In this document: piece after piece, positions 50,356 to 59,065 of the stretch
Position numbering within the stretch: the stretch's first letter is position 1
Layout of the letters: every line of letters starts with the position of its first letter
Notes under the pieces: model-generated
What the model saw: only the letters and a program-made list of their open reading frames with translations
The model's database searches: none
What the model was told of the DNA's origin: nothing
Source: Candidatus Woesearchaeota archaeon
GTDB taxonomy: Archaea; Nanobdellota; Nanobdellia; Woesearchaeales; ARS49
Assembly (NCBI GenBank): GCA_014729505.1
Contig: WJJS01000014.1
Coordinates: forward strand, 1 to 64,000
DNA length: 64,000 bases
Direction: 5' to 3'
Made by a program: the position numbers and the translations under genes

Positions 50356-52632
50356 ATGGACACACTATCTGCACAGGATCATTGCAAAGACGTACAATTC
50401 GCTATAGAAAAAGGAGTGCGGTTAAGCCCCCAGGCAGTGCACATACTGAACAACTCACAACATTTCGATGGTCTTGGACGCATCATATTTTTGGATCGCT
50501 ATTCATTAAAAAGTAAACGGGATGAAATAGGGGTAGGCGACTGTGTTATCGCGATTGTCGTTGAAGATTACAAGTTCCCAAAAAAAGAAATCGGCATCGT
50601 CAAAGCAATGCCTACAAAAGACAAAGTCGTTTTGCACATGGTAACAGGCCTGCACGCAAGCGAAGAAAGCAATTACGAACTCACCGTTGACCTGCTCAAA
50701 TGCGACAAACCAGTAGAATCAATAGATGACGCGCTCAAAAGAGTGGCACGGGCAGCAGCCAGCGTTGAAAAAGAGGATTTACAGGATTACTACTTCAATC
50801 TCTTCTACGAACAACTGGCAAACAAGCACATACAACCGGCAGGACGTATCATGACAGGAGCAAACGTGAAGGGATCAAACAATTACACAAGAAATCTTAC
50901 GCTCTACAACTGTTATGTATTGCCAAGTCCAAAGGACAGCAGATACTCCATAATCAATGAAACCTTCTTCTACATGATGGAAACAATGGCCCGGGGCGGA
51001 GGAGTAGGAATAAACCTGTCAAGCCTGCGACCAAAATATGCGTATGTACGAGGCGTTCACGGCAAAAGCAGTGGAGCAGTAAGCTGGGGAGGACTGTACT
51101 CCTTTGGCACCGGACTCATCGAGCAAGGAGGTAGCAGAAGAGGAGCACTCATGCTCATGATGGAAGACTGGCACCCGGACATTATCGAATTCATACAAGC
51201 AAAAACACAAATGGGACGCATAGAAAATGCGAACATCAGCGTGCTCATATCAGATCCGTTCATGGAAGCAGTAAAGCAAGACAAGGAATGGAACCTTGCC
51301 TTCCCCGATTACGAAGCAATGGACAAAGACCATTACAACAGGGAATGGGACGGGGATCTGCCAAAATGGAAAGAAAAAGGCTATCCAGTAAAAGTATACA
51401 AAACAGTCAGAGCACGAGACATGTGGGATACACTCATACGCTCAGCACATTCAAGTGCAGAACCAGGCATAGTCTTCCTCGACAGATACAACACACTGAG
51501 CAATTCATGGTACTTTAACCGCATCTGCTGCACAAATCCCTGCGGAGAACAGGGACTGCCAGGATGGGGCGTGTGCAACCTCGGACACCTGTACCTGGCA
51601 AGTTTTGCACGACAAACAGGAGAAGACGAAGAAGGGCCACTCTATGAAATGGACTGGGACGCGCTCAAAAGAGCAGCACGAACTCTTAATCGATTCCTGG
51701 ACAACGTTATAGATCTCAACCCGTACCATTTTGAAGCAATGGAGAAAAACCAGAAAAGTGAACGACGTGTTGGAGGAGGTACACTTGGTCTTGGAGAATT
51801 ACTCATCAAACTTCGCGTCAAATACGGCAGTCCGGAATCAATACCGCTCATCGAACAAATTTACAAAACAATAGCTACAGAAATGTACAAGGAAAGCTGC
51901 AGCATTGCACAAGAAAAAGGTTCATTTGCTAAATTTGACAGCGAAAAATTCCTGAAAAGCGGATTTATGAAACAAATGCCAGACGACATACGGGAAATGG
52001 TCAAACAATACGGAATACGCAACGTAACACTAACCACACAAGCACCAACAGGAACAGTAGGATCAATGCTCAGCACATCGACAGGAATAGAACCATTTTA
52101 TTCATTTGAATACTACCAGCAATCACGATTAGGATTTCACAAAGTACTTATCAGACTCGCGGAAAAGTACAAACGGCCCGATGGCTCACTACCAGATTAC
52201 TTCGTCGGCGCTATGGACCTCAAACCATTAGAACACGTACGAGTCCAAGCAGCAGTGCAACGCTGGACAGACAGCAGCATCAGCAAAACAGCAAACGCGC
52301 CCAACAATTTCACCGTCGAGCAAACAAAGCAACTCTACGAACACGCTTATGACCTGGGATGTAAAGGAGTCACCATTTACCGTGATGGCTGCCGAAACGA
52401 GCAAGCACTCAGCCTCGATGCAGATGCAGAAAAGAAAAACGCGGCATCAGCGCGAGGCGAGCTTGACTCAGACCTTGCAAGAGAAACAGTGAACGTTCCT
52501 GATGAGAGCGAGTACGGAGCAGAAGTCGGCCAGACCTGCCCGCAATGCCGCGAAGGAACAATGGTCAAACTAGGGGGTTGCACAGAATGCTCCAACCAAT
52601 GCGGGTTTAAGGGCAGCTGCGATATGAAGTAG
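50356..52632 (+). CDS. nrdJ: Adenosylcobalamin-dependent (class II) ribonucleotide reductase, catalytic residues intact
   Basis: YNCYVLPSP, CTNPCGEQGL, VCNLGHLYL, TQAPTGTVGS; C-terminal CPQC/CTEC cluster. Confidence 0.93.
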   Translation: MDTLSAQDHCKDVQFAIEKGVRLSPQAVHILNNSQHFDGLGRIIFLDRYSLKSKRDEIGVGDCVIAIVVEDYKFPKKEIGIVKAMPTKDKVVLHMVTGLHASEESNYELTVDLLKCDKPVESIDDALKRVARAAASVEKEDLQDYYFNLFYEQLANKHIQPAGRIMTGANVKGSNNYTRNLTLYNCYVLPSPKDSRYSIINETFFYMMETMARGGGVGINLSSLRPKYAYVRGVHGKSSGAVSWGGLYSFGTGLIEQGGSRRGALMLMMEDWHPDIIEFIQAKTQMGRIENANISVLISDPFMEAVKQDKEWNLAFPDYEAMDKDHYNREWDGDLPKWKEKGYPVKVYKTVRARDMWDTLIRSAHSSAEPGIVFLDRYNTLSNSWYFNRICCTNPCGEQGLPGWGVCNLGHLYLASFARQTGEDEEGPLYEMDWDALKRAARTLNRFLDNVIDLNPYHFEAMEKNQKSERRVGGGTLGLGELLIKLRVKYGSPESIPLIEQIYKTIATEMYKESCSIAQEKGSFAKFDSEKFLKSGFMKQMPDDIREMVKQYGIRNVTLTTQAPTGTVGSMLSTSTGIEPFYSFEYYQQSRLGFHKVLIRLAEKYKRPDGSLPDYFVGAMDLKPLEHVRVQAAVQRWTDSSISKTANAPNNFTVEQTKQLYEHAYDLGCKGVTIYRDGCRNEQALSLDADAEKKNAASARGELDSDLARETVNVPDESEYGAEVGQTCPQCREGTMVKLGGCTECSNQCGFKGSCDMK

Positions 52633-54588: not shown

Positions 54589-54718
54589 CTCTTTTTACCA
54601 CCTAAACACTACAGAATATATAATGATTCTGCATTATTCGCGAATGTTGTCATAGGATATTTATAGTAACTACTAGTCTAACTAAATCAATATAAATCAC
54701 CACTCTCTAGCAGTGTAC

Positions 54719-56866
54719 ATGCAGATTCATCATACGATTCAAAAGGTTGTCAAGAGAAACGGCACTATCGTACACTTCGACCCTGAAAAGATTCACACCG
54801 CATTAACAAAAGCACTCATCAGCACCGGAGAGACCGCAGTAGATGAAGCAGTTACGCTAACAAAACAAGTCGTCAGAGAAATAGATAAGAATTTCTACCA
54901 GCCAACAGTTGAACAAGTACAAGACGTCGTCGAGCGAGTACTCATGAGCAACGGTCTTGCAGTAACTGCAAAATCATACATCCTCTACCGCGAAAAAAGA
55001 AAAGAAGCAAGAGATGAACGCAAGCAACTACTTGACGGCATGGAATCACAACTCAAACTCTGCGTAAACTCATTGCTTTTGTTACGATCACGTTATCTTC
55101 GAACAGAAGGGGGAAAACTCCTTGAAACACCAGAACAACTCTTTACCAGAGTAGCAAAATCCATTGCTTCGGTAGACAAACAATACAAACAAGACCCTCA
55201 CGCATCACAAGAACAATTCTATCACGTCATGAGTACACTAAAGTTTCTTCCGAACTCTTCTGCACTCATGCATGCCGGTACAAAACATCAACAACTCTTT
55301 GCGATCTACGCACTACCAATTCACGACAGCGTCGAAGACATCTTTAACGCTGCAAAATACCAAGCAATCATTCAGCAAAGCGGAGCAGGAACAGGATTTA
55401 ACTTCTCAAAAATACGTCCACGATCAAGCACTGTTCGCGATCAACCAGGAATCGCTGCAGGACCCATACAACTCATGAAAGTATTTGATCACGTCGCAGA
55501 CAGCATACTGCAAGGAGGAAAACGACAAGGAGCAAACATGGGCATCCTTCGAGTAGACCATCCAGACATCCTGCAATTTATCTCGCTCAAACAGGACGGT
55601 ATAGCACTCAAGAACTTCAATATCAGCGTAGGACTCACTGAGAAATTCATGAACGCCGTTGAAAAAGGAGAAGATTTCACACTGCGACATCCGACAACAA
55701 GAAAACCAGTACAAACCATACCTGCGCGACACATTTTCGACCTGCTCATCCTCAACGCCTGGAGAAACGGAGATCCGGGAATACTCTTTTTGGATCGCAT
55801 CCATTATTCGAGAAGCAACCCGCTCATAGGAAAAGAGCAACTCTGCGCGACAAGCCCCTGCGGAGAACAACCACTCTATCCATACGAAGGAGCAATACTC
55901 GGCTCCATCAATGTATCACGCTTTGTCAGCAATGACAGCATAGACTGGGCAGACCTCAAAAAAACAGTGCACACTGCAGTGCACTTTCTCGACAATGCAA
56001 TAGATGCAAACCAGTATCCGCTTCCCGCCTCTGAAGTGATCTGCAAACAAAACAGGAGAATAGGACTTGGCATAATGGGTTTTGCAGACCTGCTCTTTCA
56101 ACTACGCATTCCTTTTGATAGCAATGAAGGAGTAGCACTTGCAGAAAAACTCATGCGCTTTATCTCAGAAAACGCAGATGCAGCCTCACGAACACTAGCA
56201 CAACTTCGAGGACCATTTCCACATTTTGAACGAAGCATCTACCAGCACGGACAAATCATACGCAACGCTTCGCGCACGACGATCAGTCCCACAGGATCAC
56301 TCAGCATAATAGCAGGATGCAGTTCCAGTGTTGAAGCAGTATTTTCACTGTCGTACACGATGCGCATGCTCGGAGACAAAGACGTACTCATCACGAATCC
56401 CTACTTTGAACGAGCATTACAGCAACAGGGCCTTCGCACAAAAGAACTCATGAAACAAGCAAGCACGAGCGTCTCAATACAAAACATAGACGCTATTCCT
56501 GATGACATAAAAAAAATCTTTAAAGTATCATATGACATCTCGCCGGAATGGCAGGTAAAAATGCAGGCAGCATTCCAAAAATACACGGACAACTGCATCA
56601 GTAAAACAGTCAATTTCCCATCATGGGCTACAACAAGCGACGTGGCAGACGTGTTTTTTCTTGCATACAAACTCGGATGCAAAGGAATCACTATCTACAG
56701 AGACAAAAGCAAAGAGGACCAGGTCATAGGAGTCAACATACAAAAGAAGACACCGCCAGGCGAGCTGCAGGAAAAATATTACTGCCCGGAGTGTGAAGAA
56801 CCACTTGACGAACAAGAAAACACACTCACCTGCAAAGAGTGCGGTTTTTCGAGGTCGCGAGTATGA
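54719..56866 (+). CDS. Class II RNR-like paralog with ATP-cone, lacking both redox cysteines
   Basis: ATP-cone KVVKRNGTIVHFDPEKIHTAL; QGGKRQGANMGILRVDHPDILQFI; SPCGEQPLYPYEGAILGSINV; LFAIYALPI; SPTGSLSIIAGCSSSVE; C-terminal zinc ribbon. Confidence 0.92.
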   Translation: MQIHHTIQKVVKRNGTIVHFDPEKIHTALTKALISTGETAVDEAVTLTKQVVREIDKNFYQPTVEQVQDVVERVLMSNGLAVTAKSYILYREKRKEARDERKQLLDGMESQLKLCVNSLLLLRSRYLRTEGGKLLETPEQLFTRVAKSIASVDKQYKQDPHASQEQFYHVMSTLKFLPNSSALMHAGTKHQQLFAIYALPIHDSVEDIFNAAKYQAIIQQSGAGTGFNFSKIRPRSSTVRDQPGIAAGPIQLMKVFDHVADSILQGGKRQGANMGILRVDHPDILQFISLKQDGIALKNFNISVGLTEKFMNAVEKGEDFTLRHPTTRKPVQTIPARHIFDLLILNAWRNGDPGILFLDRIHYSRSNPLIGKEQLCATSPCGEQPLYPYEGAILGSINVSRFVSNDSIDWADLKKTVHTAVHFLDNAIDANQYPLPASEVICKQNRRIGLGIMGFADLLFQLRIPFDSNEGVALAEKLMRFISENADAASRTLAQLRGPFPHFERSIYQHGQIIRNASRTTISPTGSLSIIAGCSSSVEAVFSLSYTMRMLGDKDVLITNPYFERALQQQGLRTKELMKQASTSVSIQNIDAIPDDIKKIFKVSYDISPEWQVKMQAAFQKYTDNCISKTVNFPSWATTSDVADVFFLAYKLGCKGITIYRDKSKEDQVIGVNIQKKTPPGELQEKYYCPECEEPLDEQENTLTCKECGFSRSRV

Positions 56867-56882: not shown

Positions 56883-57482
56883 ATGAGTACATTAGGATTA
56901 GTACAGGTTTTTACAGGCAACGGAAAAGGAAAAACATCGGCATCCCTAGGCATAGCACTGCGAGCTGTCGGACAGGGATTCAAAGTATACATGATACAAT
57001 TTCTCAAAAGCGGAGACACAGGAGAACTGTTTTCAGTCAAAAAATACCTGCCAAATATTAAAATAGTACAATTTGGCAAAGAAGCGCTTGAAGAACAACA
57101 GGTCAAAATATTCCAGTTCGATGGTGAAGGAACCATAAAACCAGTAGGACCAAAGAACGGCAAGTACTACATTTTTCTACCAGACCGAGAAGAACAGGAA
57201 CCTTCACGACGAGCCCTCGAACATGCATTTCACGTCGCAAACAGCGGACAATACGACATTCTCATACTCGACGAAATTAACAATGCATTGGCAAAGGGAT
57301 TGGTTACCATTGAGGAAGTACTAAAACTAATAGATGAAAAGCCGGACAGTGTAGAGCTGATTTTGACAGGAAGGGATTGTCCTGAAGAAATACGAGAACG
57401 TGCAGATCTGGTCTCAGATATTAGAGAAGTCAAACACCCTTTTAGTAAAGGGATACTCGCTCGCAGAGGCATTGATTACTAA
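56883..57482 (+). CDS. cobO: Corrinoid (cob(I)alamin) adenosyltransferase, CobO/BtuR type
   Basis: LVQVFTGNGKGKTSASLGIALRAVGQGFKVYMIQFLKSG; DILILDEINNALAKGLVTIEEVLKLI; LILTGRDCPEEIRERADLVSDI. Confidence 0.93.
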   Translation: MSTLGLVQVFTGNGKGKTSASLGIALRAVGQGFKVYMIQFLKSGDTGELFSVKKYLPNIKIVQFGKEALEEQQVKIFQFDGEGTIKPVGPKNGKYYIFLPDREEQEPSRRALEHAFHVANSGQYDILILDEINNALAKGLVTIEEVLKLIDEKPDSVELILTGRDCPEEIRERADLVSDIREVKHPFSKGILARRGIDY

Positions 57483-57521: not shown

Positions 57522-59065
57522 ATGAAATCACATACTTCAATTGAAAAAGCACTGAATGCACCCAACACCGTTGAAACCCTGAATCTTTCAGGACAGAAAA
57601 CACTTGAAAACCTACCGACCAGCATCAGTACCTTTCGTAATTTAAAAAAACTCTATCTGCAGGACACGAGCATACGCACAAGGCCATCGAGTCTTGCACA
57701 GTGCAAAAAACTTGAAGTCCTTGATCTTCGGGGAACAAACATTAGCACATTTCCACGAGTCATCCTGCAACTCAAACACCTCAAAGAACTCTACTTTTAC
57801 TCAGAAGATCCTGATTATGCCCCGCAACAACGTTGAAAAGCGTACCACAGAAATTAGGCACATTACGCGCACTTGAAAAACTGCACTTCACGAATATGAA
57901 CATCAAAGAATTGCCCCCATCCTTTGCCCAACTAACCGCACTCAAGGAACTCAGCATCAGCGGAACACAACTCAAAGAATTCCCTACAGCACTCTATACG
58001 TTCAAAAAATTGAACACGCTATATTTTGGTAACAATCACTTCATGAGCTTTCCCGACGATATCGGCCGTTTGAAACAACTGAAAGTCCTTGGATTTATCA
58101 ATGGAGGTATCACGCAATTGCCAGAAAGTCTGAGCCAACTCAAGCTGAGAGAACTATACATTAGCTATAACGGTTTTAAGCAGGTACCCCACAGTATTCT
58201 TGGCCAGAAAAGACTCAAAAAATTGGGCCTGCGAGCAATTGGAGGTCTTAGAGACGTTACAGATGACCTGCGAGAACTGCGACAGCTTGAATGGCTGGAT
58301 CTGGGCAATAACAAACTCACTCGAGTACCCACTGCAGTACAGCATCTGAAAAAACTCAAGGTCCTGCTTCTTGATCACAACAACATCGACGATATTGGTA
58401 AGATGCCTGCATCATTACAAGAAATAGATTTAAGCCGCAACGCGGCAAAAAACCTCGGACCATATATTGGGAATCTGAAAAATCTTCAAATATTGCGAGT
58501 ACTTGAGACACCACTTCACTCACTGCCTGTTGGACTAACACAGTGTACACAACTCAAAAGTCTCGACCTGTACCGCACAAAAATAACAGGATTGCCCATG
58601 GGCTTTGAGCAATGGAAGAACCTCGAAGAACTGGATTTGGGGTTTACAAAGATCACAGGCCTACCGCCAAAAATAGGAGAACTACAACGTCTTCGCGCAC
58701 TACGACTCATGGACACCACACTTGGCACGCTTCCTGCAGAACTTGGTCGTTGTAAGCGTCTTAAAGAATTACGTGCGATACGCGTAGGACTGACAGTGTT
58801 TCCACAATGCATTCTTGACATGAAGAAGTTGCAAACACTTGTTCTTGACGGTAACAGGATCAGTACGATTCCTGACACTATAGGAACCCTTACGCGATTA
58901 GAAGAGTTAAGTCTGAGCGGCAATCCCATCACCACACTACCAGCAAGCATCAAAAAATTAAGGGCGCTGAAGCGTTTGGATATCTGTGCAACACAAATAC
59001 CTCCAGCAGAGACACAACGTCTCACAGGTCTTGTGACTCAAGCAAGAGTGTACACAACATACTAA
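57522..59065 (+). pseudogene. Leucine-rich-repeat protein split over two frames (57522-57836 and 57833-59065)
   Basis: Both ORFs carry about 23-aa LRRs (LxxLPxSIxxLxxLKKLYLxxTxI); repeat phase continues across the frame change at TTGA 57833-57836. Confidence 0.7.

Follow-up and report, generated by a model that had tools for sequence, protein, structure and literature searches.

What can a ribonucleotide reductase (RNR) still do once the cysteines that reduce its substrate are gone? The question is raised by a 64,000-nt stretch of a Woesearchaeota contig (hereafter the window), in which a class II RNR (NrdJ) paralog with an altered active site lies 2.1 kb downstream of an intact RNR. The features on which the argument turns are listed here. 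Sites in the paralog carry its own numbering and are matched by alignment to NrdJ of Thermotoga maritima (Tm; 1xje/1xjk), with equivalents in E. coli (Ec).

50356..52632, + strand: intact class II RNR with C225, NPCGE, CNLG and Cys-rich tail, no ATP-cone
54719..56866, + strand: altered class II RNR (NrdJ) paralog, 715 aa, ATG at 54719
54743..55006, + strand: ATP-cone, residues 9-96 (Pfam PF03477, E 6.9e-22)
55304..55306, + strand: Ile196 (ATC), replacing the reducing Cys C134 Tm / C225 Ec
55325..55327, + strand: Asp203 (D141 Tm / D232 Ec), effector 3'-OH contact, in 54/54 paralogs
55415..55417, + strand: Arg233 (R171 Tm / R262 Ec), effector phosphate contact, in 54/54 paralogs
55523..55525, + strand: Arg269 (R207 Tm / R298 Ec), loop 2 substrate phosphate contact, retained
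55853..55855, + strand: Ser379, replacing Asn (N320 Tm / N437 Ec)
55859..55861, + strand: Cys381 (TGC), radical Cys (C322 Tm / C439 Ec), retained
55865..55867, + strand: Glu383, base carboxylate (E324 Tm / E441 Ec), retained
55892..55894, + strand: Ala392 (GCA), replacing the reducing Cys C333 Tm / C462 Ec
56285..56299, + strand: SPTGS substrate-phosphate loop, retained
56783..56863, + strand: C-terminal zinc ribbon, zinc Cys 689/692/705/708 present
56883..57482, + strand: cobO/btuR ATP:corrinoid adenosyltransferase (PF02572, E 5e-54)

Active site of the window paralog

The frame of the paralog is open through 56866 with no in-frame stops (a GTG is also present at 54713), and Pfam recognizes in it the RNR barrel (PF02867, 1.5e-114) and all-alpha domain (PF00317, 4.2e-19). 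The NCBIfam model TIGR02504 awards it 605.6 bits against a cut-off of 399.95, a score on which automated pipelines could well label it a reductase. About 25 nt 5' of its ATG is a ATATAAAT stretch (window 54689-54718) that resembles leaderless archaeal promoters. At window 57522-59065, two leucine-rich-repeat ORFs overlap in different frames and are possibly a single frameshifted gene.

Judged by its residues, the protein cannot be an ordinary reductase. By alignment, all four electron-carrying Cys are absent and the radical Cys is present: Ile196 and Ala392 replace the reducing pair, and Thr702 and Ser713/Arg714 occupy the redox-shuttle positions of the zinc ribbon, where there is no Cys pair. 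A sequence-only reading of the window had placed ATC at 55304, TGC at 55859, GCA at 55892 and a change from Asn to Ser; the codon positions are correct, and the T. maritima alignment agrees on the residues. It had also called the SPCGE finger loop, the ATP-cone, the SPTGS loop and the zinc ribbon retained. This is true of the first three and half true of the last: the four zinc Cys are there, spaced as in the ribbon of S. nassauensis (zinc Cys 920/923/936/939, redox Cys 933/945; PMC5704485), and the redox pair is missing. With SPCGE as its finger loop, the paralog does not match the NxCxE motif of class II. Might other cysteines occupy the lost positions, as that reading had allowed? The alignment of the paralog group contains no conserved candidate column for a replacement.

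Structural work assigns contacts with the ribose 3'-OH to Asn437/Glu441 (N320/E324 in T. maritima), contacts with phosphate to Arg298, plus Ser91 in T. maritima, and contacts with the effector to Asp232 and Arg262 (PMC4728125). In the window paralog Ser180 is retained alongside Arg269, Asp203 and Arg233, the last two matching D141/R171 of the T. maritima dNTP specificity site. The position of T. maritima K158 is taken by Gln220, as likewise in 61 of 106 canonical rows. An AlphaFold model built from 6 sequences, with a mean pLDDT of 67 and values under 50 in the active-site loops, is unfit for judging active-site geometry. Chance does not explain the substitutions, since the columns on either side are conserved and comparable losses occur in 53 other genomes.

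Losses across one archaeal order

Relatives co-occurring with an intact RNR and bearing the same substitutions had been suggested as a check. Co-occurring relatives exist, and their substitutions vary. In 59 related genomes there are 12 NrdJ paralogs with altered active sites or without other conserved catalytic features, and a survey of 341 genomes of the order uncovered many more, for a total of 54 NrdJ paralogs missing at least one catalytic residue. Within these 54, C225 is lost in 21, C462 in 34, and N437 is changed or unaligned in 48 (22 Ser, 20 Asp, 2 Gly, 1 Thr, 3 gaps). E441 is lost in 12, of which 7 have Asp, leaving E or D in 49/54. The radical Cys is lost in two (G013 and G023) and kept in 52, although alignment of the finger loop is uncertain for G011 and G016, members of the same, most eroded clade, and the loss could reach 4/54. 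The equivalents of D232 and R262 are lost in none. The phosphate loop keeps its Pro in 53/54, Thr in 51/54 and Gly in 54/54; the C-terminal shuttle Cys are absent from nearly all. Substitutions are varied, and no newly conserved catalytic residue takes the place of those lost. The 106 other rows have no loss at C225, N437, C439, E441, C462, D232 or R262, zero loss at the five catalytic sites being the definition of the split between altered and other. Both reducing Cys are present in about 15/54 (patterns CSCEC and CDCEC), where reduction via a small-molecule donor may still be possible; others have C225 alone.

Parsimony counts 13 changes at C225, 13 at N437, 14 at C462 and 3 at E441, as against one at C439 and none at D232 or R262. 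Were lability the same at all four Cys/Asn sites, one change or fewer at the radical Cys would have P = 1e-4, by a rough, post hoc test that treats changes as independent. The radical Cys is encoded by TGC in 32 paralogs and TGT in 19, and use of both is consistent with synonymous turnover under constraint.

To judge from the trees, altered NrdJ paralogs arose several times independently in this one order. A quick IQ-TREE unites L007 (G001), L013 (G025) and the window protein in a clade of three (SH-aLRT 97), whose sister is the canonical pair L005/L006. Even within this clade the losses differ: I196/S379/A392 in the window protein, A196 alone in L007, and G379/T392 in L013. On that tree the altered label changes 5 times, and supported branches force at least 4 of these changes. 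On a larger FastTree the label is spread over several separate clades; the 9 changes counted there (at least 5 forced) are relative to tail-less rows only and do not number origins. In certain members of family f63 nothing but the tail Cys is missing, a hint that the tail can be the first part to go. Three tandem NrdJ genes of another genome (L146, G112:C60:700-7000) have intact active-site residues, and the C-terminal Cys are absent from all of them.

Five sister-order NrdJ sequences, from within the same taxonomic class, are all canonical. A wider scan of genome contigs gave just 6 relatives, all of them bacterial and with canonical versions of the motifs used, and a scan of viral contigs gave one RNR, distant and canonical. 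A literature search, with most subscription papers outside its coverage, found no published description of such paralogs.

Partners, cones and selection

A second RNR barrel is present in 52 of the 54 genomes that have an altered paralog, the exceptions being G254 (89% complete) and G332 (67%). By hand-compiled coordinates, paralog and second RNR share a contig in 34 genomes, with gaps of 43-5180 bp (median about 2 kb), and are unlinked or on different contigs in 18. No such closeness is found among the 13 genomes of the window's family that have two canonical NrdJ, where no pair lies within 10 kb; in a different family, however, G191 carries a tandem pair of canonical copies. The partners are spread over several distant subfamilies. 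In the 40 partner regions examined, motifs are intact wherever they can be read through the finger loop; some ORFs are incomplete in the fetched range or bear inteins, and several have no C-terminal Cys in the part covered. Class III NrdD was considered as a candidate for the true reductase here and rejected: the Pfam NRDD family search found no gene, matching one fragment in G245 and, below threshold, two places inside NrdJ genes. PF13597 has no match in the window genome.

Several details of these regions may be recorded. An intein-like insert interrupts canonical NrdJ at the radical-Cys codon (NP / C...VVHN / CGEQ) in L055 (G038:C17:16500-20300) and L071 (G012:C14), and inteins are probable in several further partner RNR ORFs of 1200-1800 aa. 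The intact RNR beside the altered paralog in G001:C25 (L074 5517-7779) is read as a 426-aa and a 335-aa ORF that overlap, through a frameshift or assembly error. Directly 5' of the intact partner there is, by sequence, an NrdR-like gene in L074 5050-5520 (G001), L082 15118-15582 (G013), L083 15536-16003 (G023) and L085 9069-9551 (G016).

The stop codon of the window paralog is 17 nt from the start of cobO. It is tempting to take this as proof that the paralog uses AdoCbl, an argument that was dropped: canonical nrdJ is flanked by cobO in most cobO-bearing relatives. Since cobO mostly adjoins canonical nrdJ, the window paralog sits in an inherited nrdJ-cobO place. In genomes without cobO, a gene that by sequence resembles PduO-type cobalamin adenosyltransferases is found near the RNR genes (L080 9060-9593, L082 10339-11034, L083 11399-11932, L086 7816-8334).

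The sequence-only reading saw no recognizable ATP-cone in the intact RNR at 50356, and Pfam finds none. Its suggestion of allosteric control in trans has a mixed fate. Of 46 pairs with readable N-termini, 29 have a cone on the paralog only, 9 on both proteins, 8 on the partner only, and none lacks a cone altogether (Fisher P 9e-5), but this is not independent evidence, because the 8 partner-only pairs belong mainly to family f10 and come from few lineages. That no readable pair is without a cone favors the suggestion; that nine pairs have cones on both proteins does not. A rule of exactly one cone per pair was true of the first eight linked pairs and, with 9/46 having two, had to be relaxed to at least one. 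Trans-allostery between the paralog and the intact RNR is possible.

Selection was assessed by Nei-Gojobori dN/dS in close pairs from four clades of related altered paralogs, a sample outside which the window lineage lies. Five pairs with the radical Cys gave 0.048, 0.060, 0.041, 0.066 and 0.051, and a sixth, G256/G323, was saturated. The pair without it, G013/G023, gave 0.058, compared with 0.046 for their intact NrdJ. All values are approximate, most pairs being highly diverged at synonymous sites, yet at 0.04-0.07 in six close pairs they imply that the altered genes are functional. The clade of G011, G016, G013 and G023 is the one in which erosion is further advanced, and purifying selection on the last two means that a radical-free function exists in a relative, favoring regulation there.

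A radical without reduction?

I propose, with a probability of roughly 0.42, that the window protein is a radical-competent, reductase-dead, effector-binding companion of the intact RNR. It would be derived from an ordinary class II RNR of the nrdJ-cobO type and would work alongside the intact enzyme. It would still bind AdoCbl, generate a thiyl radical on Cys381 under the control of dNTP and ATP, and be able to take the 3'-H from a nucleotide that it binds. Delivery of two electrons would be impossible, so any turnover would be redox-neutral, an elimination or isomerization and not a reduction. E. coli and Lactobacillus enzymes in which these Cys are mutated do start the reaction, releasing base and 3'-keto products. 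The output of the paralog would feed or tune the dNTP pool of its intact neighbor. Telling against the proposal are the selected lineage without a radical Cys, the lack of any newly conserved catalytic residue across the group, and the roughly 15 paralogs in which both reducing Cys persist. Its weakest point is the step that comes after the radical has formed. The fuller version, an AdoCbl-dependent, allosterically controlled thiyl-radical enzyme, repeatedly derived from RNR and performing redox-neutral nucleotide chemistry beside the intact RNR (2'-dehydration giving a 3'-keto-2'-deoxynucleotide, for instance, or isomerization), is rather unlikely to be right as it stands.

Radical chemistry or a regulatory subunit were the choices offered by the sequence-only reading. 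They were the right ones, and both survive, the near-invariance of the radical Cys being set against a selected lineage that lacks it. A regulatory pseudoenzyme would bind dNTP effectors and ATP/dATP and modulate the adjacent intact RNR in trans, through a hetero-oligomer or by sensing effectors, its radical Cys serving to pack the finger loop or awaiting decay. This is only slightly less probable than the radical companion. It draws on the invariance of D232/R262, the 34 linked pairs, the cone table, and the purifying selection on G013/G023 (0.058, against 0.046 for the intact partner gene); moreover, the C-terminal domain of class II enzymes is able to act between subunits (PMC5704485). Against it stands the almost constant presence of the radical Cys and carboxylate while neighboring catalytic residues turn over. 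Partners from several distant RNR subfamilies make a conserved hetero-dimer interface harder to maintain, and the cone-less paralogs, mostly of f10, weaken the cone table as noted.

Could the paralog reduce ribonucleotides after all, by unconventional means? A small-molecule reductant (a thiol or formate) might act directly in the active site, as in formate-dependent class III, making the Cys pair and tail dispensable. One Cys plus formate suffices in class III (PMC4390871), S. nassauensis NrdJ stripped of its Cys-rich domain is active with DTT (PMC5704485), shuttle loss accompanies the other losses nearly always, and some paralogs do keep both active-site Cys or C225. I nevertheless consider the idea improbable: the window protein and several clades have neither Cys and so no thiol beneath the substrate, Asn437 is lost too, almost every genome has a second RNR, and E441 is kept, a residue absent from most class III enzymes, in which formate is presumed to fill its role (PMC4390871). 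Least credible of all is that the gene is a decaying relic, left after an acquired RNR replaced the old nrdJ. It does occupy the inherited place, with a distant intact RNR 2.1 kb upstream, and losses differ between its two nearest relatives. But in-frame stops are few among altered ORFs and absent from the window ORF, dN/dS is low in all six measurable pairs of the four (related) clades, and the paralogs have been retained long across many genera.

Four known systems invite comparison. With T. maritima NrdJ (1XJE; TIGR02504) the window paralog shares the barrel fold, radical Cys, Glu base, phosphate loop, effector Asp/Arg, ATP-cone and zinc ligands, but not the reducing Cys pair, the Asn of NxCxE or the C-terminal redox pair. 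Class III NrdD likewise has no full Cys pair and no C-terminal Cys relay (PMC4390871); it is, however, a glycyl radical enzyme in which the Glu base is mostly absent, whereas the window paralog matches PF02867. Beta-herpesvirus R1 homologues such as the catalytically inactive M45 of MCMV are also RNR large subunits repurposed without ribonucleotide reduction (PMC12282084), but M45 is a viral class I R1 that targets host signaling by aggregation, and the window paralog is cellular, of the AdoCbl class, retains its radical Cys and stands beside an intact RNR. The tail-less NrdJ of Loderer 2017 similarly co-occurs with a complete class II RNR; the available part of that paper reports loss of the tail alone, while the present group has lost active-site residues too (PMC5704485).

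According to a 2015 review, the active-site Cys pair is found in all class I and II RNRs (PMC4390871), and a 2022 survey found NPCXE in 3175 of 3347 class II sequences (95%; PMC9669993). The paralog group breaks both rules, several times independently in one order, while the radical Cys and the allosteric site persist. It also carries a warning, that an equivalog model, TIGR02504, admits a protein unable to be a normal reductase. These paralogs would represent a natural separation of radical initiation from reduction, which makes a thiyl radical in an RNR fold without its reductant something that can be put to the test.
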